Assembly (NCBI GenBank): GCA_937891465.1
Contig: CALAHF010000080.1
Location: 1-64,000, forward strand
Length of the DNA: 64,000 nt
Direction: 5' to 3'
DNA from: an uncultured Verrucomicrobiales bacterium
Lineage (GTDB): Bacteria > Verrucomicrobiota > Verrucomicrobiia > Verrucomicrobiales > DEV007
In this document: positions 20,701 through 32,861 of the stretch, one piece after another
Position numbering within the stretch: position 1 is the first letter of the stretch
Layout: each line of letters opens with the position of its first letter
Position numbers and translations under genes: made by a program
Notes under the pieces: model-generated
Database searches by the model: none
What the model was told of the DNA's origin: nothing
The model's input: only the letters and a program-made list of their open reading frames with translations

Positions 20701-20762
20701 TTAAGTCAGCGGTGTGATTTTTTTACTGACTGAAGGCAGTCGTGTTGTTAGGGTGCTGGGTG

Positions 20763-22397
20763 ATGAGTTGGGAAACATACGGACGAAATTACACAAGATG
20801 GGTTGCAGGTGTTTTTTGTTTATGGGCAATGGGGGGGCAATTGGTCGCAGCCGATGACTATCGGAAGCCCAATTACGATTCGCTGCCTTTTCCAGAAGGT
20901 GGAATCCTGATGGATGAGAGCAAGAAAGCAGGATTTCTCAATGCGTTAGCGGCGATCGCTAGAAATTATGATGACGTATCCAATTCGGATCGGGCACGTG
21001 CGGTTGCTTTGGCGCGCCGGGTCGATCCATTGCATAAGCCGTCGTTTATTGCTGACTATCAGCTCGATCGTGGTGTGAAGCCCGAGCCGACTGCTGACTA
21101 CGAGAGGAAGAAAGACGCGGTTTATGCGGTTTATAAAACGTCATTGGATTTTTCGAGAGCACCTGACAAAAAAGCGAAAGAGTATTCCGGATATTTGATC
21201 GATTTGTTGATTGGGGTGGAACCTCAGGACACAAACTACCCAGCCTTGATGGGTGAATATGAAAAGGAGTTCCCCTCAGTGAGTTGGGAGTCCATCGTTT
21301 CTATCGAAGGTGACTCACTCGCTCCGCCTCCGGTTTCTCTGGGTGGACCCGGCCATCAGTTCGCGTTTCTTTCTACGGATGGGATTTTAAAAATTCAGTC
21401 AAACAGCAAGTCCGGGGGAGCAAGTGGATTGCAGTTTCCTGGAAAGAATCCGGTGGAAACAGGGATTTTTAGATCAGCTTTTCGGGAAGGGGTGAAATAT
21501 CTCGGGCAGAAAAAATCAGGCATCACCCGAGGGTGGACGGTTTCATTCAAAGCTGATGGAGAATTTAAGGACGAGTTTTTGGAAGAGCAGGGACCCGCTG
21601 CGGCGTTGGGGAGCGTATTGTCGCTTCAAGCGCTTGTTGAAAACGTTGAATTTGATCCTGCTGTGGCGTTTGCAGGGGATGTGAATGCCGATGGATCAAT
21701 TCAACCCATTCATGACATTCGTGATCGACTGAATTCGATTGGGAAATCAGAGATCAAAATTATAGGTATCCCAATGGCTGACGCCGGTTCTCTTGGGGAT
21801 ATCCTCATTCTAAACGGGCCGAAGGTTTTTGCAGAACGTCAGATTTTCGGGGTGCGTTCGATGAAAGAAGCTTCCGAATTGTCCCGCCCATTTTCAAGTC
21901 GTGCTCAAGATCTCCAGGCGGCGATGGATAAATTTTCTGAGATTCAGGAAGTGCTATTGAAGCCCGGTGGGATGAAACATTTGACGAATAGTCATGTGCT
22001 GAAACGTTTGCAGGAGGTGACTCAGCTGGCACCTAATCATCTTTCAGCAAAAATGTTGGCTTTCAAGGGGCTTCAACGAGCACCGGGAAAACTGACGTTG
22101 GGAGCTTCTCTCGAGTTAGTAATGGAGCCGCTTAAATCGATGACTAGCGGAGATGATGAGAAAATGAAAATAACAAGTGCTGGCTTGGATCCTGAAGCTG
22201 TTCTCCGATTGCAGCGTTATGCAAAGGGAATTGACGGACGTTTGAAGAAACTGAGCAGTGCGGTGGTCAACCTTTCGAATGCAGGTCGAGTTGGTTCAGA
22301 TAAATTTACAGCTCAGGAAATTGCGACCACTCGGTTGAAGGATGAATTGGCCGCTGTGGGACGGAATATTGATGTGCGAGAGGAGATGATGCGATGA
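20763..22397 (+). CDS. secreted Lon-like pseudoprotease
   Basis: A 544-residue secreted protein related to the Lon (S16) proteolytic domain. ATG at 20763 gives a signal peptide ending near VAA at 28-30. A Lon-like block runs from about 255 to 350, followed by helices. Where Lon has its catalytic Ser in GPSA, this protein reads GPAA (Ala279); where Lon has the catalytic Lys in the PIGG..K segment, it reads PIHDIRDRL (Arg322). Both dyad residues are thus lost, so it is probably not a protease. There is no AAA+ domain. Its stop overlaps the start of the next gene (ATGA), which encodes a paralogue with an intact dyad; a regulatory or scaffold role is inferred. Confidence 0.75.
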   Translation: MSWETYGRNYTRWVAGVFCLWAMGGQLVAADDYRKPNYDSLPFPEGGILMDESKKAGFLNALAAIARNYDDVSNSDRARAVALARRVDPLHKPSFIADYQLDRGVKPEPTADYERKKDAVYAVYKTSLDFSRAPDKKAKEYSGYLIDLLIGVEPQDTNYPALMGEYEKEFPSVSWESIVSIEGDSLAPPPVSLGGPGHQFAFLSTDGILKIQSNSKSGGASGLQFPGKNPVETGIFRSAFREGVKYLGQKKSGITRGWTVSFKADGEFKDEFLEEQGPAAALGSVLSLQALVENVEFDPAVAFAGDVNADGSIQPIHDIRDRLNSIGKSEIKIIGIPMADAGSLGDILILNGPKVFAERQIFGVRSMKEASELSRPFSSRAQDLQAAMDKFSEIQEVLLKPGGMKHLTNSHVLKRLQEVTQLAPNHLSAKMLAFKGLQRAPGKLTLGASLELVMEPLKSMTSGDDEKMKITSAGLDPEAVLRLQRYAKGIDGRLKKLSSAVVNLSNAGRVGSDKFTAQEIATTRLKDELAAVGRNIDVREEMMR

Positions 22398-24016
22398 AAA
22401 AATGGGTGTTATTTCTTGGGTTTTTGAACTGTGCCATCACCTTTGGTCAGGAAGTTCCGGCTCCTATTGAGTTTGAGGAAGCGTCTCTTGCAAAAATTCC
22501 GACTCAACTTCGGGCAGAGATCGCCTCAGCGCTTCAGGCCGTTCTTCAGAAGGAAGATGTTCCTCAGAAAGTGAAGGCGCTGGCTCAGCAACTTTATTTC
22601 GGGAAAGATGCGCTGGATGAGACTGAAATAAGTGCAGCAAGGCTGGCTCTTGGTGAAGCTGTGTTCTCATGTGAGATCCAGTCACTTGCCACGAAAATTC
22701 CTGATGATGCTCCGGAGGTGGCGGCTCATTTGCTCAGTTTGGCCTTGGCATTAAATCCCGATAATTTGAATTTGGCTTACGAACTCGAGACGATCAAAAT
22801 TCAAAAAAATGTAAAGTTGAGATGGGCGATTACTGAAAAAAAAGAACCACCGAGCTTGATGGTTACCGCGGCAACTTCGATCCAAGGGCTCGCGAGAACA
22901 CAATCATTGATCAAAGGATTATTGGTGCAACAACTCGCCGGAAGTCAGTTTGCGGGATCTGCGTCACAGATGAACGCCACGGCAATTTCATCACCCAACA
23001 AAGGCGAATGGCTAATAGGTTTCAATCAGCCGGTAGGAGAAATGATGTCAGGCGCCCTTGGTCGGGTTGATAAGTTTTTGGGAAAACGCCATGAACTTCC
23101 AAATGGGGCGCGAGTCGAAATCAGTTTTGAAGAGCAGTATGTCCCGAAAGACGGCCCATCAGCTGCGGTTGCTTGCACCTTGCTTTTGGAATCACTGATT
23201 ACGGGTGCCGAATACGATTCCGCATTCGCCGTTACCGGGGATATGGATGAAGAAGGTGTAGTGGGGCCTGTGGGAGGGATTGATGGAAAAATTCGCGGTG
23301 CCGCGAAGCGAAGCTGCAAAGTGATCGCGATTCCTGCAAAAAACAAACAGGTCATCAGCGACCTACTAATCATGGAAGGGCCGCTTTCGATTTCAAAAAT
23401 TCAGATTTTTACGATTGCGACGTATGATCAGGCGCTGAAGATTGCTCTCTCGCCAGAGTCCCGAGATGAAAAATTGAAACAAGCGCTTTCGGAATTTGGA
23501 GAGATTCAGTCAGTTTTAAAAAAGCCAAACGGAGCCAATTTTCTTCGTAATGCTCAGGTTCAGAAAAAGTTGCGTAATATCATTGCTTTGGCTCCAAACC
23601 ATTTGTCGGCCCGTTTACTTTTGCTGAAAGGGCTGGGGAAAGAACCAACTCAACTTTCGCTCGCGGGGTCGCTTTTGACAATCGATCGGGCGGCTGCACC
23701 TTTAATTAGAGCTTTGGAGCAAGGAAAATTCGAGAATAACGATGATCTGTCAGGTGATGAGTATGCGGATGCGATTTCCAAAATTAAACGAGTTCGCGCA
23801 CAACTCGATTCCCGCACTCACCTTTGTGCAGATGCAATCGTGGATTACTCCGTGTTCATCAGGGAATGGGTGAATGACCGGCCAAGTTCGCGGAATAAGC
23901 AAATTGAACTCGTTGGAAATATCAAAAAATCCGGAGATAGAGTCGGAGGGGAATACGATAAATTGCACAAACGCCCAGACGTTAGGGAAGAACTGGAGAT
24001 TGAAGATCCGGAATAG
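22394..24016 (+). CDS. secreted Lon-like serine protease (S16 domain)
   Basis: A 540-residue secreted protein. The signal peptide is MKKWVLFLGFLNCAITFGQ. A helical region is followed by an S16-like proteolytic domain at about 205-345: PKDGPSAAVACTLLLESL carries Ser256 and GPVGGIDGKIRGAAK carries Lys299, matching the Lon Ser-Lys dyad context. The helical C terminus resembles that of the preceding paralogue (FLRNAQVQKKL, IALAPNHLSARLLLLKGL). There is no ATPase domain, so it must act without Lon-type unfolding. It overlaps the upstream pseudoprotease by 4 bases. The likely location is the periplasm; the substrate is unknown. Confidence 0.78.
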   Translation: MKKWVLFLGFLNCAITFGQEVPAPIEFEEASLAKIPTQLRAEIASALQAVLQKEDVPQKVKALAQQLYFGKDALDETEISAARLALGEAVFSCEIQSLATKIPDDAPEVAAHLLSLALALNPDNLNLAYELETIKIQKNVKLRWAITEKKEPPSLMVTAATSIQGLARTQSLIKGLLVQQLAGSQFAGSASQMNATAISSPNKGEWLIGFNQPVGEMMSGALGRVDKFLGKRHELPNGARVEISFEEQYVPKDGPSAAVACTLLLESLITGAEYDSAFAVTGDMDEEGVVGPVGGIDGKIRGAAKRSCKVIAIPAKNKQVISDLLIMEGPLSISKIQIFTIATYDQALKIALSPESRDEKLKQALSEFGEIQSVLKKPNGANFLRNAQVQKKLRNIIALAPNHLSARLLLLKGLGKEPTQLSLAGSLLTIDRAAAPLIRALEQGKFENNDDLSGDEYADAISKIKRVRAQLDSRTHLCADAIVDYSVFIREWVNDRPSSRNKQIELVGNIKKSGDRVGGEYDKLHKRPDVREELEIEDPE

Positions 24017-24017
24017 C

Positions 24018-25769
24018 TCAGTTGCCCTGCATTTGAATAAGCCGGGGGGAATCAAGGCTTTTCGGCAACACGTGAGTCGCTAAGACAACTCCTGCTCCCC
24101 GGTTTTTTTCCCTCAGAATGGCTTCGCAAACGCGATCGGTAGATTCATCATCGAGGGCTGCAAACGGTTCATCCATTAAGAGGAATGGGCGGCCTGAGAC
24201 AAGCGCACGGCACAGAGCCAATCGATACTGTTGACCCACGCTCAGGTTTCGGCCTCGGTCGGCGAGGATTTCGTCCAGTCCACCGACATTCCGTCCTTTG
24301 ATTACGGTCGCTAGATCAACTTCCTCAAGTGCCTGCCACACTTTTTCGTCCGTCGCGTCGGGATTCCCGAGTGTGATGTTGTCGCGAATGGTGCCAACAA
24401 AAAGGTAGGGTTGTTGCTCAACAAAAGCGGAGATAAGAGGGGAGGCTTGTTTGAAGCACAAATCGGAACCGTCTTTCAGACCGAGGTTAAAGTCTCCCGA
24501 AGAGGCCGAACGCAACCCTGCTACAGATTCAAGTAAGGTTGATTTTCCACAGCCAGAAGGCCCCATGAGGGCGACGATTTCGCCGGACTGAATTTCGAAA
24601 TCAAAGTTGTCGATGATGGGTTTCTCGTTGTCGAAGCCCAGCGTCAATCCAGATACGGTTAAAGATTGAACCTTCGGTATTTGGGATTCGAATATTTCTC
24701 CAAATACTGTGTTCGAATCAGCAACGTGGTTTTTTTCGTCGTATAATACGGACGCGAGCCGCCCGCCTTCGATGAAAAAGCGATTCCAATCATAAGCTGA
24801 AGCAACAAGCTCTTTGGCCGACCCGAGAAAAACGTTGATAAAAAACGGATACACGAGGGCGTCAGTGACCGTGAGCTGTCCTCCTTTTATTTGAAACGCT
24901 ACGAGGGATAAGATGGCGGTGATAACCAACTGGCCACTTGTTTCATTGAGTCCCATAAGCGCCGCCATTGACTTGATGATGCGCATTCCGGTTTTGAAAA
25001 GTAGGTCCAGCTGAACATTGATTCGCTGAAACGTGAACTTCTCGCCGCCGTAACTTCGAATGGTTCGCACGCCTTCAAAGGTTTCAATCACCGATTGAAA
25101 CACGTCGCCTTCGATTTCGCGGGCTTCAGAAAGTGTCGCAGCCATCCGTCGTTGAACGAATAGATTGATCAGCGCGAGTGCCACCGCCGCAAAAATAGGA
25201 ATGAGAGCAACGGTTCCGCTGTAGAAAAAGAACAACGCAGCGGAGCCAATTAGCATCGTGAAATTCTGAATCTGATCCGGGATCGACATCGTCAGAAATT
25301 CCTCTGCGTTGTGAAGATCGCCGGACATTCGCATCATCCAATCTCCCCGGCCGGACGAATCGAGTTTCTCAATTCGCGTTCGGTTCAAGGCGTGAACCGC
25401 GCCCCGTCGCAAATCGTTGCTTACGGTTAAGCGAAGCCATTCCCGGAGAACACCGGTCAGAAAAATAGCAACCCAAAGGCAGGCGGCAATGGCGACTCCA
25501 AACAGAACCAGAGACTTTATGAATTCTTCGGCGTTGGCTTCGGAAACAGTTTCGGCCCCCTCGGTGAAAAATTGCAACAACCGTGGAGGAAGCAAAAAGA
25601 TTGAGGACAGTAGCACGCTCGCTGGAATCCAGAGTTTGTATTTCCAACCCAACCGTTTGGTGACCTCTCGAATTAAGCGAAAGCCGTAGCGTCGCCCGAG
25701 AGAAAGGTCGGGTGGAATTTGAGAGTTGGGAGCTGAATCCATAATCAGAGGAGGGCGAATGCCTGCCAT
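24018..25769 (-). CDS. ABC exporter, fused membrane and ATPase domains
   Basis: A 583-residue half-transporter of the exporter type. Residues ~40-330 form a six-helix membrane domain; the ATPase domain has Walker A GPSGCGKST at 403-411, signature LSVGQ at 509-513, Walker B FLLMDEP near 530 and the switch His in ATH near 566. It has no C39 peptidase domain. It is divergent from the radical SAM gene, with 144 bases between the starts, so shared regulation and export of the modified peptide are plausible but inferred. It is convergent with the Lon-like gene. An alternative start is Met10 at 25742. Confidence 0.85.
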   Translation of the reverse strand: MAGIRPPLIMDSAPNSQIPPDLSLGRRYGFRLIREVTKRLGWKYKLWIPASVLLSSIFLLPPRLLQFFTEGAETVSEANAEEFIKSLVLFGVAIAACLWVAIFLTGVLREWLRLTVSNDLRRGAVHALNRTRIEKLDSSGRGDWMMRMSGDLHNAEEFLTMSIPDQIQNFTMLIGSAALFFFYSGTVALIPIFAAVALALINLFVQRRMAATLSEAREIEGDVFQSVIETFEGVRTIRSYGGEKFTFQRINVQLDLLFKTGMRIIKSMAALMGLNETSGQLVITAILSLVAFQIKGGQLTVTDALVYPFFINVFLGSAKELVASAYDWNRFFIEGGRLASVLYDEKNHVADSNTVFGEIFESQIPKVQSLTVSGLTLGFDNEKPIIDNFDFEIQSGEIVALMGPSGCGKSTLLESVAGLRSASSGDFNLGLKDGSDLCFKQASPLISAFVEQQPYLFVGTIRDNITLGNPDATDEKVWQALEEVDLATVIKGRNVGGLDEILADRGRNLSVGQQYRLALCRALVSGRPFLLMDEPFAALDDESTDRVCEAILREKNRGAGVVLATHVLPKSLDSPRLIQMQGN

Positions 25770-25913: not shown

Positions 25914-27128
25914 ATGACAGAAACACTTTCACCACCGGAAATCGCAACCCCGCTCGCAATTCCCGCGACGCCTACAGAAGTCGAACAGCTTTTTCTTTCG
26001 CTGCTTGTGATTCAGCCCAGCCCGTTCTGCAATATCAATTGCGACTACTGCTACCTCCCTGACCGGACGAATACCCACCGGATGGATTTCGACGTGTTGC
26101 AAAAAACCTTGGAACGCGTTTTTGAAAGCGGGCTCGTGGGTGCTCCCTTTACATTGCTCTGGCACGCCGGTGAACCTCTTGCTGTACCTTTGAAATGGTA
26201 CCAAACCGCTTTTGAGCTTATCGGAAAATTTCCCGGCACGAAAGAGTTCGTCGAACACAATTTCCAGACCAATGGAACGCTGGTGAATGACGCCTGGTGC
26301 GATTTCATCAACGAAAACAAAATTGTCGTTGGTGTCAGTATCGACGGTCCCGAGTTCATTCACGATCATCATCGCAAGACCCGTAAAGGCGAGGGCTCTC
26401 ATGCAAAGGCGATGCGGGGCTACAAAAAGCTCAAGGATGCCGGATGTAACCCAGGTGTGGTCAGCGTGATTTCTGACATCGCAGTTGATCACCCGGATGA
26501 GATTTACGACTTTTTCATCGAAAACGACATCGACGCCGTTGGCTTCAACATCGAAGAAATCGAAGGAGCGAATGAAACCAGTTCGCTGGGCCGCCCCGTC
26601 GATGGTGATGAACGCATGCGCGCATTTCTTACCCAATTTTACCTTCGGAATAAAGCGGATGGATTTCCGATTCGCGTTCGGGAATTCGAAACGGCGAGGA
26701 CCAACATCCTGAACCCGTTCGATTTCCAAACTCCCTGGGGAAGTTATTACAACTCAGAGGTCGATCCGCTCGGTATGGTAAACGTCGATTGTTACGGAAA
26801 TTTTTCGACCTTCTCACCTGAGTTGCTTGGTCAGCCCACCGAAAAATACGGAACGTTCAACTTTGGAAATGTGATCAAACAAGGGCTTTTCGAGGCCACT
26901 GTGAACCCCGCGTTTCAGAAGGTCCTCGAAGACATCGAGGCCGGAAATAAGAAGTGCGCCGAGACCTGCCCCTTTTGGAAAGGCTGCGGTGGAGCGTCAC
27001 CTTCGAACAAATATTACGAAAACGGAACGTTCGATTCCACCGAAACATCGAACTGCCGATCCACCGTGCAAATCCCGATGCAGATCGTCCTGGATGATCT
27101 CGGCAAAACCATGGCGGACATCGCGTAA
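25914..27128 (+). CDS. radical SAM/SPASM peptide maturase, GrrM/OscB-like
   Basis: A 404-residue radical SAM enzyme. The [4Fe-4S] motif is CNINCDYC, with Cys39, Cys43 and Cys46. The sequence around it (LLVIQPSPFC...YCYLPDRT), then WHAGEPLAVPLKWY, NFQTNGTLVNDAWC, VGVSIDGPEFIHDHHRKTR and GFNIEEIEGANETSSLG, are hallmarks of the GrrM/OscB family. C348, C352, C358 and C381 are candidate SPASM-domain cluster ligands. Known members form three-residue cyclophanes, linking an aromatic side chain to the beta carbon of a residue two places on. The next gene encodes a precursor with suitable F-x-N and W-x-R/N motifs, supporting this role here by inference. Confidence 0.88.
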   Translation: MTETLSPPEIATPLAIPATPTEVEQLFLSLLVIQPSPFCNINCDYCYLPDRTNTHRMDFDVLQKTLERVFESGLVGAPFTLLWHAGEPLAVPLKWYQTAFELIGKFPGTKEFVEHNFQTNGTLVNDAWCDFINENKIVVGVSIDGPEFIHDHHRKTRKGEGSHAKAMRGYKKLKDAGCNPGVVSVISDIAVDHPDEIYDFFIENDIDAVGFNIEEIEGANETSSLGRPVDGDERMRAFLTQFYLRNKADGFPIRVREFETARTNILNPFDFQTPWGSYYNSEVDPLGMVNVDCYGNFSTFSPELLGQPTEKYGTFNFGNVIKQGLFEATVNPAFQKVLEDIEAGNKKCAETCPFWKGCGGASPSNKYYENGTFDSTETSNCRSTVQIPMQIVLDDLGKTMADIA

Positions 27129-27210
27129 AACATTTTTTAACCAACCCAATTTCTGGCGAATCGGACCTGCTCCCACCGTGCTGCCGAATAACCCAAACCA
27201 AACTAATACA

Positions 27211-27444
27211 ATGGCAATCCTAAGAAGTACAGATGGTAAGTTCTACGAAGTTGCAGACGAGCAGTTGCAAGACAAGCTCATCGCAGGCGAAGAACTGAAA
27301 TCAAAACTCAGCGGCGCGGCTACCGGCCAGGCCCCTGAAGTGAAAAAAGACGAAGAAGTGACAGCGCACGGCTATTGCTGGCGTCGGAACTGCTTCCACA
27401 ACTGCTGGAGTCGCAATTGCTTCCGCAATTGCCACCGGCACTAA
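27211..27444 (+). CDS. RiPP precursor peptide with duplicated Cys/aromatic core
   Basis: A 77-residue putative precursor. The acidic leader, residues 1-~52, begins MAILRSTDGKFYEVADEQL and ends VKKDEEVTAHG. The core holds five Cys (56, 61, 65, 70, 74) and a tandem 9-residue repeat: WRRNCFHNC (57-65) and WSRNCFRNC (66-74), then HRH. F62-H-N64 and F71-R-N73 fit the aromatic-x-Asn rule for three-residue cyclophanes; W57 and W66 could also react. Every Cys but the first follows Asn, and Cys is the usual target of MNIO enzymes. It lies between the rSAM and MNIO genes. The ATG at 27211 follows ACAATACA with no strong ribosome site. The mature product is unknown. Confidence 0.82.
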   Translation: MAILRSTDGKFYEVADEQLQDKLIAGEELKSKLSGAATGQAPEVKKDEEVTAHGYCWRRNCFHNCWSRNCFRNCHRH

Positions 27445-27457
27445 GTCGTAATTTCCC

Positions 27458-27501
27458 AACCGCTCGCCTCTCCGCCCAAAGAGCGCAGGGGCGGCGGTTT
27501 T
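27458..27501 (+). terminator. possible attenuator hairpin after the precursor gene
   Basis: AACCGCTCGCC...CCGCCC can pair imperfectly with GGGGCGGCGGTT, followed by TTTT. It could limit read-through from the precursor into the MNIO gene, favouring peptide over enzyme. The bulges make the call tentative. Confidence 0.45.
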
Positions 27502-27510
27502 GGGGATTTC

Positions 27511-27608
27511 GAACCAACCTCATTGAGTCGATGATCCAACCCTGTTGGATCGAAAGCTTGAAATGAACAAACCCTATCCGATCGTCACATAAACCCTGTT
27601 CGATCGGA
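27511..27608. repeat. dispersed ACCCTATTGG/TTCG element, copy 5
   Basis: Four GAACCAACC/CCAACCCTGTTGGATCG/AACCCTATCCGATCG/AACCCTGTTCGATCG units occupy the gap between the precursor and MNIO genes. Confidence 0.78.
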
Positions 27609-27625
27609 TTTTTTCTTCTACGACA

Positions 27626-28870
27626 ATGAGCGCTCCCAACCTCGAATCACCTTCTCCAAATCATCATCAAAATCCTTACGGCGTAGGATTGGCCTATCGC
27701 TATTCGTGCCACAATGATTATTTGAAGTATGAAGGTGAGATCGATTTGATGGAGGTTTCAACTGAGGATTACATCGTCCGGGAACGTAGAATGCATCGCG
27801 ATCCGGATGAATTGCTTATAAAGGATGCGCTGAACCGCTGGCCCACCGTTGTCCACGGGATTTCACTATCGATCGGCACCGTTGCCGAATTGAATCCGCA
27901 TTACATTTCGGGCACTCGGGATTTTATTAAACGCCACGATCTGAATATTTTTAGCGAGCACCTCGCTTTTCACAGTGTCGACGGGAAAGACCTGACGATG
28001 TTTCTCTGCATGCCTTTCGAAGAGATCGCAGTCCAGTGGATAAAGCAAAATTATTACGCGGTCCGTCGTGAGCTGGGGCGGCCTTTTGCTTTGGAGAACG
28101 TGACTTATTTTTTTCCGGCACCACATTCTTCGTTGAGTGAAGCCGATTTTTTACGTCGGATCACAGAGGAAACGGACTGCACGCTGCTTCTGGATATTAC
28201 CAATGTTTTCAACAACGCGATGAATCATGGCTATGATCCATATGAATTTTTGGATCGATTGCCACTCGAACGAGTTTCGCAGATGCACCTCGCAGGTGGT
28301 TTTAAAGGTGAGGATGGAAAGTGGGAAGATAGTCACAGTCATCCAGTGATGGGCGAGGTGTGGCCGCTTTATGAAGAGGTGTTGAAGCGTTCACCTGCTG
28401 AAGTCGTTGTGATAGAGCGGGATAGCCGTTTTAATTCTTTTTCAGAAGTTCATACTGATTTGAAAAAAGCTCGCGATCTTTTTTATCGTCATCGACCTGA
28501 AAAGCGCCCAGCCGAAGATTTGATGCCGGCTTTTGAGTCCCCGACTGTGGCGGAAAATAGTGATCCTGAGCCGCTCGCATCTAAATTTGCGGGATTACGG
28601 GGCTATCAGCGATCGCTGATGGGCCGAATCACGGACACTGAATTTCGAACTCAGTTTCGAGCAGATCCTCCCATAGCTTTAGAACAGTTTGAACTTACGG
28701 ATGCCAAATGGGTTGATAGCATCTCAGACATCGATCCTGATGATATCCATAAGCTTCAGTCAGCGTGGGAATACATTCACGAGGAAGACAAAGAAGTCGC
28801 TCAGGATTACGAACAAAACGAATGGGCAGTCTGGGCGGAAGAAATTGAAGCTTCAGGCGAAGCAATCTGA
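27626..28870 (+). CDS. MNIO (DUF692) peptide-modifying enzyme with fused partner-like domain
   Basis: A 414-residue protein. Residues ~15-290 form a DUF692 TIM barrel, the family of multinuclear non-haem iron oxidases. Candidate iron ligands are His77 in VVHGISLSIG, His112 in FSEHLAF, Glu157 in ALENVTY, Asp190 in LLLDITN, His201 in NHGYDP, His221 in QMHLAGG, His237 or His239 in DSHSHP and Glu264 in VIERD. Known relatives (MbnB, TglH, ChrH) modify Cys residues of precursor peptides. Residues ~310-414 form an extra domain (KFAGLRGYQRSLMGRI, ...DIDPDDIHKLQ) similar in outline to the partner proteins that deliver peptide to MNIO enzymes, here apparently fused. The likely substrate is the Cys-rich product of the upstream gene. 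Confidence 0.87.
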   Translation: MSAPNLESPSPNHHQNPYGVGLAYRYSCHNDYLKYEGEIDLMEVSTEDYIVRERRMHRDPDELLIKDALNRWPTVVHGISLSIGTVAELNPHYISGTRDFIKRHDLNIFSEHLAFHSVDGKDLTMFLCMPFEEIAVQWIKQNYYAVRRELGRPFALENVTYFFPAPHSSLSEADFLRRITEETDCTLLLDITNVFNNAMNHGYDPYEFLDRLPLERVSQMHLAGGFKGEDGKWEDSHSHPVMGEVWPLYEEVLKRSPAEVVVIERDSRFNSFSEVHTDLKKARDLFYRHRPEKRPAEDLMPAFESPTVAENSDPEPLASKFAGLRGYQRSLMGRITDTEFRTQFRADPPIALEQFELTDAKWVDSISDIDPDDIHKLQSAWEYIHEEDKEVAQDYEQNEWAVWAEEIEASGEAI

Positions 28871-28958: not shown

Positions 28959-29035
28959 GCACCCATAGCTCAACTGGATAGAGCACCTGATTACGGATCA
29001 GGAGGTTTGGGGTTCGAATCCCTATGGGTGTACCA
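28959..29035 (+). tRNA. tRNA-Arg(ACG)
   Basis: A full cloverleaf of 77 bases with encoded CCA. The acceptor GCACCCA pairs with TGGGTGT, the anticodon loop is TTACGGA with anticodon ACG, and the T loop is TTCGAAT. Its A34 is the classic substrate of TadA, which is encoded at 34542-35069. Its last 14 bases overlap the 3' end of the minus-strand broken gene. Confidence 0.96.
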
Positions 29036-31049: not shown

Positions 31050-32861
31050 ATGATCAGTTCTAAATTTCTCCGTTTTATTGTTGGATTCGCTTCTCTGATT
31101 GCGTCTTTTTCCGTCGCAGCAGATAAGCCGAACGTCGTTTTTGTCATCACAGACGATCAGGGTTATGGCGACCTTTCGATTCACGGGAACCCTTCCTTAA
31201 AGACTCCGAATCTGGATGCGCTTGCGAAGGATTCCGTTCGTCTTCAGGACTATCACGTGGCTCCGACATGCTCTCCGTCACGCAGTGCTATTTTGACCGG
31301 TCATTGGACGGATCGAACGGGAGTATGGCACACGATTAACGGGCGGTCGATGCTTCGCCAAAATGAAGTCACTCTCGGACAAATTTTCAAAGATGGTGGA
31401 TATGCGACTGGGATGTTCGGAAAATGGCACCTGGGAGACAATTACCCGTTTCGTCCCGAAGATCGGGGATTTACCGAAGTGCTTCGCCATGGCGGTGGGG
31501 GGGTCGGCCAAACTCCGGATTTCTGGGACAATGCTTATTTTCACGACACGTATTTCCATAACAAGAAACCCGAAAAGACCGAAGGTTTCTGCACGGATGT
31601 TTATTTTGAATACGCAAAAAAATTCATCGAGACGCAAGTCGCTGCTGATAAACCGTTCCTTGCCTACATTTCGACGAATGCGCCGCACAGCCCGAATCAT
31701 GCGCCGCCGGAATTCGCCGCGCCGTATCTGGATGATTTCTCAGTTGCTGTAGCCAACTTTTTTGGAATGGTCGCGAACATCGATCACAATGTCGGCGAAA
31801 TGCGCCAATGGCTTTCCGAAAAAGGCCTCGCGGAAAACACGATTTTCATCTTCACCACGGACAATGGAACGGCTGGTGGTCGGACGGTTTTTGATGGTGG
31901 AATGCGAGGGGCAAAAGGAAGTGAATACGACGGAGGTCATCGCGTTCCGTTTTTTATTCATTGGCCAAATGGCAACATGAAAGGTGGCCGACTCGTTGAG
32001 GAGATTACCGGTCACGTCGATGTGGTTCCAACACTGATTGATTTGTGCGATGTGCCGGCACCAAAAGGGGTAGTATTTGACGGCACTTCCATCCGGCCGC
32101 TTTTGGATGATAAAGTTGATGCTGATTGGCCGGATCGAATTTTGGTGACCGATTCTCAGCGCGTAAAAGATCCAATTAAATGGCGCAAATCATCCGTGAT
32201 GACAAGCCAGTGGCGTTTGGTCAGCGATAGCGTGAAAGGAAAGCCCAGACACGAGCTTTATGATATTAAAGCCGACCCGAAGCAGGCGAAAAACGTCATT
32301 GCTGAAAATCCGGAAGCGGCAAAACGACTCAAAAAATTCTACAATGATTGGTGGTCTGAAATTGAGCCAACCTTCGGATCGCCCGCGCGGATTATTCTTG
32401 GGAATCTGGCGGAAAATCCAACTCGATTAACAAGTCATGACTGGATTACGGAGGGCTCAACGCCGTGGAATCAGGCGCATATTCGTGGTGCTGACAACAA
32501 GCCTCAAAATCGTGGCTTCTGGTATTTGGAAGTCGAGACTAGCGGTGATTACGAAATTGAGCTTCGTCGCTGGCCCAATGAAGGATCCGTTGCCAAAGTC
32601 GGGATTTCTGAAGAAATCCCCCCCGGCGCGAAAGTTCCCGGCGGCCCTTCCTTCCGTGGACGTCCCGGAAAGTCTGTTCCAGCCAAAACCGCAAAACTCA
32701 AAATGGCGGGTCAAACGCTTGAGGCTGCGGTGCCTGAAGGGGCTGCTTCGGTGAAGTTTTCGTTGAAACTTGAGAAGGGGCCTGCGGAACTTGAAGCGAC
32801 CTTTCATGGCGAAAACGGTGAGATCACGGGCGCATACTACGCGTATGTGAAAAAGCTGTGA
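31050..32861 (+). CDS. secreted sulfatase with extra C-terminal domain
   Basis: A 603-residue secreted arylsulfatase-type enzyme. GGGAG precedes the ATG. The signal peptide ends near SVAA at 21-24. NVVFVITDDQGYGDLS carries metal ligands, CSPSR at 74-78 is the formylglycine signature with Cys74, and GMFGKWHLGDN follows. FTTDNGTAGGR and the ENPEAAKRL block complete the family. An extra C-terminal domain after about residue 450 (GFWYLEVETSGDYEIELRRWP) looks like a beta-sandwich accessory module, giving a longer protein than the two sulfatases near the left end. Substrate unknown; it is separated from other catabolic genes. Confidence 0.9.
   Translation: MISSKFLRFIVGFASLIASFSVAADKPNVVFVITDDQGYGDLSIHGNPSLKTPNLDALAKDSVRLQDYHVAPTCSPSRSAILTGHWTDRTGVWHTINGRSMLRQNEVTLGQIFKDGGYATGMFGKWHLGDNYPFRPEDRGFTEVLRHGGGGVGQTPDFWDNAYFHDTYFHNKKPEKTEGFCTDVYFEYAKKFIETQVAADKPFLAYISTNAPHSPNHAPPEFAAPYLDDFSVAVANFFGMVANIDHNVGEMRQWLSEKGLAENTIFIFTTDNGTAGGRTVFDGGMRGAKGSEYDGGHRVPFFIHWPNGNMKGGRLVEEITGHVDVVPTLIDLCDVPAPKGVVFDGTSIRPLLDDKVDADWPDRILVTDSQRVKDPIKWRKSSVMTSQWRLVSDSVKGKPRHELYDIKADPKQAKNVIAENPEAAKRLKKFYNDWWSEIEPTFGSPARIILGNLAENPTRLTSHDWITEGSTPWNQAHIRGADNKPQNRGFWYLEVETSGDYEIELRRWPNEGSVAKVGISEEIPPGAKVPGGPSFRGRPGKSVPAKTAKLKMAGQTLEAAVPEGAASVKFSLKLEKGPAELEATFHGENGEITGAYYAYVKKL

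Follow-up and report, generated by a model that had tools for sequence, protein, structure and literature searches.

Do a radical S-adenosylmethionine (SAM) enzyme and a multinuclear non-haem iron-dependent oxidative enzyme (MNIO, an iron-containing enzyme class) act on one and the same peptide? This question is raised by a locus in a stretch of 64,000 nucleotides from an uncultured Verrucomicrobiales bacterium (contig CALAHF010000080.1, positions 1 to 64,000; hereafter the window). An earlier note on this DNA had picked out a GrrM-like radical SAM enzyme with a CNINCDYC motif, a 77-residue gene and an MNIO at positions 25914-28870, and had proposed from gene order that both enzymes serve the encoded peptide. 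The open reading frames (ORFs) are as it described them: the radical SAM enzyme contains the motif and matches the GrrM/OscB family TIGR04261 at 437.5 bits in hidden Markov model (HMM) searches (curated cut-off 310), and the MNIO matches PF05114 at 240.7 bits. The best explanation of the locus, and in our judgement a likely one, is a pathway for a ribosomally synthesised and post-translationally modified peptide (RiPP), in which radical SAM-derived cyclophanes and MNIO-oxidised cysteines would be combined on a single precursor.

Conservation of the gene trio and of its precursor

Both enzymes were used to look for relatives within the GTDB family to which the window genome belongs, and the regions recovered were compared. 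The order radical SAM-precursor-MNIO, on one strand, was found at all 18 untruncated loci, which include the window and represent three genera; two more loci are cut by contig ends and stand outside this count. The radical SAM enzymes at the other loci are 62-75% identical to that of the window. When 59 family genomes were searched for both enzymes, strong matches to each were found in the same 12 and neither was found in the other 47, a co-occurrence to which shared descent contributes. Clusters lacking the MNIO or the precursor, which the earlier note had named as evidence that would speak against its proposal, were looked for within the family and none was found. A chance pairing in one genome is ruled out by the 18 loci together with the co-occurrence. 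In one genome a threonine-dehydratase-like gene lies between precursor and MNIO (L064:6345-7919, minus strand), the only interruption of the trio that was seen.

On a wider scale, genomes were taken as even, non-exhaustive draws from the phylum. The precursor was found at a convincing E-value in none of 387 other genomes (one weak match, E 0.006), that is in 1 of 388 with the window genome included, and a GrrM match over the cut-off in none of 240 others (1 of 241 with the window genome). This scarcity makes the GrrM version look limited to one verrucomicrobial family. Among 294 Planctomycetota genomes, a convincing precursor was present in the seed genome (G482) only.

The full window precursor, MAILRSTDGKFYEVADEQLQDKLIAGEELKSKLSGAATGQAPEVKKDEEVTAHGYCWRRNCFHNCWSRNCFRNCHRH, matched no Pfam or NCBIfam family in the HMM scan. 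In an alignment of 16 precursors the first ~33 residues are near-invariant (consensus MAILRSxDGKFYxVxDxQL...), and this leader is common to the window-type precursors and to those of the planctomycete and of genus g8 described below. The core region, H53-GYCWRRNCFHNCWSRNCFRNCHRH, contains five Cys, two F-x-N motifs (F62-x-N64 and F71-x-N73) and two W-x-R-N motifs (W57-x-R59-N60 and W66-x-R68-N69). H53, W57, N64, W66, R68, N69, C70, R72 and N73 are invariant in the alignment, G54 and C56 are invariant or nearly so, and every core has two to three aromatic-x-Asn motifs and one to two W-x-R-N motifs. A Gly/Pro-rich linker (GQVVIQIxTS) found in most other precursors is absent from the window precursor and from those of genus g12, and the L041 genome carries two precursors in tandem. 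Non-synonymous and synonymous divergence (dN and dS, rough values for so small a gene) were 0.12 and 0.82 between the window and a locus of the same genus (L032), and 0.07 and 1.4 between loci L064 and L065. The precursor is under purifying selection; this and its conservation across genera rule out a spurious ORF.

The two maturases and their predicted chemistry

For OscB, bonds from Trp C7 or Phe C4 to the Asn beta-carbon at i+2 have been reported, and for XncB bonds from Trp to Arg or Asn (PMC11002830); the F-x-N and W-R-N motifs of the core thus suit the chemistry of the GrrM/OscB family. In the proposed pathway the conserved leader would be bound by both maturases, and the GrrM/OscB-type enzyme would close a ring from each Trp or Phe onto the Asn (or Arg) two residues further along, bonding to its beta-carbon, with a loss of 2 Da per ring. 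The candidate ring sites are F62-N64 and F71-N73, with W57 and W66 joined to Arg at i+2 or Asn at i+3; in W-x-R-N, the acceptor may be either of these. The classic GrrM/GrrA system is ruled out, as the precursor lacks Gly-rich repeats and matches none of the precursor families.

Most aromatic residues of the core are directly preceded by Cys, and thioethers are common products of SPASM radical SAM enzymes, and the radical SAM enzyme of genus g8 has the ranthipeptide maturase PapB as its best named match, although far under the cut-off. The radical SAM enzyme might therefore form Cys thioethers of the sactionine or ranthipeptide type instead of cyclophanes, leaving the MNIO to trim or oxidise the remainder. 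We consider this very improbable, since the window enzyme scores well over the cut-off of a cyclophane family and W/F-x-(R)N is almost fixed while the Cys positions vary.

The MNIO is the only one in the 5.97 Mb genome assembly. The full ligand set that the earlier note had ascribed to it holds up: H77, H112, E157, D190, N193, H221, D235, H237 and E264 are invariant in 19 homologues, this H/E/D/N set was aligned to MbnB, TglH and 3bww, and from E157 onward the residues align with matching MbnB residues. Its scores against named families are 202 bits for HvfB, 196 for BufB, 105 for ApyH, 51 for ChrH and 30 for MbnB, so that HvfB and BufB are by far the nearest named MNIOs. HvfB and fontiphorin-type MNIOs make copper-binding 5-thiooxazoles (PMC13097082). 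By kinship, the 5-thiooxazole is the likeliest Cys product here too, a guess of moderate strength; each Cys so oxidised, as in HvfB/BufB, would lose 4 Da, with Cys70 (and Cys56) as the likeliest sites. Membership of the bufferins, captophorins or methanobactins is ruled out by the cut-offs, the partner and the signal peptide: the start of the window precursor, MAILRSTDGKFYEVADEQL, has no hydrophobic stretch (Sec signal judged by eye), no EGKCG and no Pfam match, DUF2282 included.

An AlphaFold2 model of the MNIO (predicted local distance difference test score, pLDDT, 86) gave the MNIO barrel followed by a helical domain, with TglH, 3bww and MbnB as the nearest solved folds. As the fold search with the whole model recovered the barrel only, the C-terminal domain was modelled separately (pLDDT 92), and its top three Foldseek matches were all Os1348 (6lk7), weak at E 1.1-2.8. 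The Os1348 family NF038399 matches this domain in 9 of the 19 MNIO homologues (best E 1.5e-6, up to E 0.01), the window MNIO scoring 24 bits against a cut-off of 40. DUF2063-type partners accompany most MNIO clusters (PMC12452194), and a PF09836 search found none in the window genome and none in five of six other genomes. Read most simply, these findings suggest that the C-terminal domain stands in for the DUF2063 partner; the MNIO would use this fused, leader-like helical domain in place of a separate protein. The sixth genome (G057), which also bears a fused-MNIO cluster, has its DUF2063 gene next to a second MNIO, one of the ordinary type, within a single stretch of contig (G057:C21:8632-10012).

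Natural variants, accompanying genes and the proposed pathway

Two versions of the cluster differ in their radical SAM enzyme. A planctomycete contig (L092/L152, G482:C174) encodes, on one strand, a precursor, an ATP-binding cassette (ABC) exporter, a GAF protein, an S8 protease (46% identical) and a fused MNIO (40% identical over residues 15-406); its assembly gave no match to GrrM. The precursor joins a window-type leader (MAILKSADGKFYDVPDSQL) to the core HHCHHCHRCHRCHNCHHCHHC, which has seven Cys in HxC repeats, a single Asn, no Trp and no W-x-N; this Cys/His cluster is possibly a metal-binding RiPP in its own right. The genome G008, of genus g8 in the window's own family, has two precursors whose leader is related (MAIVRGQDGRYYDIED) and whose cores contain CGWRNWRNWRNWRNCGWQN (core CGWRNWRNWRNWRNCGWQNC), preceded by a different SPASM radical SAM enzyme that is 25% identical and under all NCBIfam cut-offs. 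The ABC gene after these precursors runs, via an exact 41-base contig-end overlap, into a contig with ABC and MNIO genes, and the GAF and S8 genes are divergent. This g8 version, with its two WRN-repeat precursors, lies at L165:738-2911 together with L072; a further stretch resembling the leader, MPRVTGLDGRVFEVTEETLEKCRIPDEQV, lies close by, where the region of the ABC gene is read in a different frame. From the two variants it follows that the W-x-N motifs track the radical SAM enzyme, and that Cys and leader track the MNIO. The constant part of the clusters is the set of MNIO, exporter, GAF and S8 genes.

These variants, with the 18 loci and the 12 of 59 genomes, uphold the proposal that both enzymes serve one peptide. 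That the planctomycete MNIO gets by without GrrM could instead suggest that the two enzymes serve separate peptides and that their adjacency is historical. This is the least probable of the alternatives: every complete locus has a single family of small ORFs between the two genes, a search of the window genome gave no second precursor, and where the radical SAM enzyme is missing, a precursor that keeps the leader lacks W-x-N as well.

A further alternative keeps both enzymes on the precursor and directs the MNIO elsewhere, to hydroxylate aromatic residues or to cleave or oxidise Asn like PbsC and MovX, the unmodified Cys serving for disulfides or metal binding. Known MNIO targets include Phe (ortho-hydroxylation), Asn and Asp (PMC12257519, PMC11002830), W, R and N of the core are as conserved as Cys, whose number varies, and the MNIO exceeds no equivalog cut-off. 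However, the planctomycete version keeps MNIO and leader with a core of seven Cys, one Asn and no Trp, HvfB and BufB are the nearest relatives by a wide distance, and each core read has at least two Cys. We regard this alternative as unlikely, although it deserves more weight than the other two.

The trio is part of a cluster larger than first described, to which the divergent ABC exporter belongs; the earlier note had included neither this gene, nor the MNIO C-terminal domain, nor the subtilase and GAF genes that accompany the cassette in relatives. At nearly all loci whose contig extends far enough, a homologue (48-68% identical) of the exporter gene (PF00664, 111 bits; PF00005, 86 bits) is found in the same place and is likewise divergent. 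Downstream of the MNIO, most loci have a GAF protein and a small subtilase, which retains its Asp (DSGV), His (EHGTA) and Ser (GTSFA) motifs and, judged by eye, lacks a signal peptide. Among named families the subtilase scores best against QhpE (NF049966), below the cut-off of 165 bits both at locus L034 (116 bits) and for the copy in the window genome (107 bits), a 57% identical orthologue on another contig (G000:C176). QhpE strips the leader of the radical SAM-modified QhpC prior to export by the ABC transporter QhpF (PMC7876137). By analogy, leader removal would fall to the QhpE-like cytosolic subtilase, cutting close to the conserved V-x-(A/P)-H-G, and export of the product to the divergent ABC transporter. 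The GAF protein may be a sensor or bind the leader; at L034:4152-4898 (minus strand) it is kept beside MNIO and subtilase, as it is in the planctomycete and g8 clusters. The product would be a compact, ringed, Cys-modified peptide, probably a binder of copper or another metal. In this pathway the gene content, its conservation and co-occurrence, the selection on the precursor and the link between motifs and enzymes are observed, whereas the chemistry as a whole, the sequence of steps, the site of cleavage, the export and the function are predictions.

Several observations weigh against the cyclophane-plus-oxidised-Cys pathway. GrrM substrates are Gly-rich, and the window cluster has no such repeat precursor, its core being instead rich in Cys, Trp, Arg and Asn; W-x-R-N also differs from the classic W-x-N. 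Cys70 is the sole invariant Cys, the number per core ranges from two to five (one core, L041, has two only), and the non-conserved positions exchange with His, Tyr, Ser or Asn. Modification of every Cys is thus not required, and of the earlier view that the core suits both enzymes, the F-x-N and W-x-R-N motifs and the five Cys of the window stand, while five Cys as a general rule does not. The MNIO lies under every NCBIfam equivalog cut-off (HvfB 360, BufB 310, MbnB 325 bits), so that the reaction of the named enzymes cannot be transferred to it. The window cluster itself has no subtilase, and the planctomycete version comes from one contig of a metagenome-assembled genome. A metallophore role is no more than suggested by the Cys/His content, the Cys/His interchange at variable positions and analogy.

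More tentatively, and in our view less likely than not, these clusters might represent a RiPP class whose original module handled Cys/His cores and comprised an ABC exporter, a QhpE-like subtilase, a GAF protein and an MNIO that does without a partner and has a leader-like, NHLP-type domain of its own. Different radical SAM enzymes would have been added per lineage, folding the core by means of cyclophanes. The rings would then pre-arrange Cys-derived heterocycles into a metal site, giving a cyclophane-thiooxazole hybrid metallophore.

Table 1. Positions in the window of the cluster genes and of their parts.
Feature	Position	Strand	Description
Exporter gene	24018..25769	minus	ABC exporter, fused permease/ATPase, 583 residues, no peptidase domain; divergent from radical SAM gene
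Radical SAM gene	25914..27128	plus	404 residues; GrrM/OscB-family radical SAM/SPASM peptide maturase, predicted cyclophane synthase
Precursor gene	27211..27444	plus	77 residues; homologues between both enzymes at untruncated loci
Precursor leader	27211..27366	plus	Residues 1-52 (MAILRSTDGKFYEVADEQL...EEVTA); putative boundary; alignment of 16 precursors
Putative core HGYCWRRNCFHNCWSRNCFRNCHRH	27367..27441	plus	From translation; Cys56, 61, 65, 70, 74
MNIO (DUF692) gene	27626..28870	plus	414 residues; catalytic TIM barrel at residues ~19-285
MNIO C-terminal helical domain	28553..28867	plus	Residues 310-414, putatively NHLP/Os1348-like

Directly 3' of the MNIO gene lies a tRNA-Arg(acg) (28959-29035, plus strand), a possible cluster boundary. 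At 20742-24016 (plus strand) there are two tandem overlapping genes of ~550 residues each that match the Lon (S16) C-terminal proteolytic domain and have no AAA domain match (for the first, sub-threshold only). A large sulfatase-like gene of 603 residues (31050-32861, plus strand), near the cluster, has homologues in the regions of the relatives L034 and L043.

Comparison with known systems

The enzyme classes are each known, and from their pairing here, GrrM type and MNIO, a natural product of a new and perhaps metal-binding kind may result; the openly readable literature covered gave no description of a GrrM-type or triceptide enzyme with an MNIO, nor of this core or leader. If the proposed pathway is right, three-residue cyclophanes and MNIO cysteine oxidation, both among the most productive of RiPP chemistries, are united on one core of 20-25 residues, and soil and marine Verrucomicrobiota gain a defined, conserved peptide pathway. 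The compact gene set suits co-expression, and the three natural versions (GrrM, another radical SAM enzyme, no radical SAM enzyme) offer a ready comparison of each enzyme's part. The fused C-terminal domain bears on how an MNIO works without a DUF2063-type partner, a question raised in PMC12452194.

Like the OscB/GrrM triceptide systems (TIGR04261), the cluster has a radical SAM enzyme of that family and aromatic-x-Asn motifs in the core; unlike them, it has a precursor that is not Gly-rich and belongs to no NCBIfam precursor family, a Cys-rich W-x-R-N core and an MNIO. With the captophorins, bufferins and oxazolin (HvfB/BufB; 5-thiooxazole copper binders) it shares the nearest MNIO families, a Cys-rich substrate and a likely link to metal, but here there is no Sec signal, EGKCG or DUF2063 partner, the MNIO has its own helical domain, and the substrate is also that of a radical SAM enzyme and is predicted to leave by ABC export. 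The earlier note had mentioned that a pathway using both enzyme classes exists, and this is borne out by the aminopyruvatide (apy) and biphenomycin-like pbs clusters, in which a single precursor is the substrate of an MNIO as well as of a radical SAM enzyme; those, however, have B12-dependent radical SAM enzymes and a RiPP recognition element partner protein (and a P450 or arginase), and their MNIOs have targets other than Cys. MovX, the MNIO of a Vibrio methanobactin-like cluster, likewise does without a partner protein and carries an additional domain (PMC12452194), whereas the additional domain of the window MNIO looks NHLP/Os1348-like. The qhp operon (QhpD radical SAM enzyme, QhpE subtilase, QhpF exporter) offers the same succession of cytosolic radical SAM modification, QhpE-type subtilase and ABC export, but QhpC, which bears Cys-Asp/Glu thioethers, is the subunit of an enzyme, there is no MNIO, and the subtilases of the present clusters fall under the QhpE cut-off.

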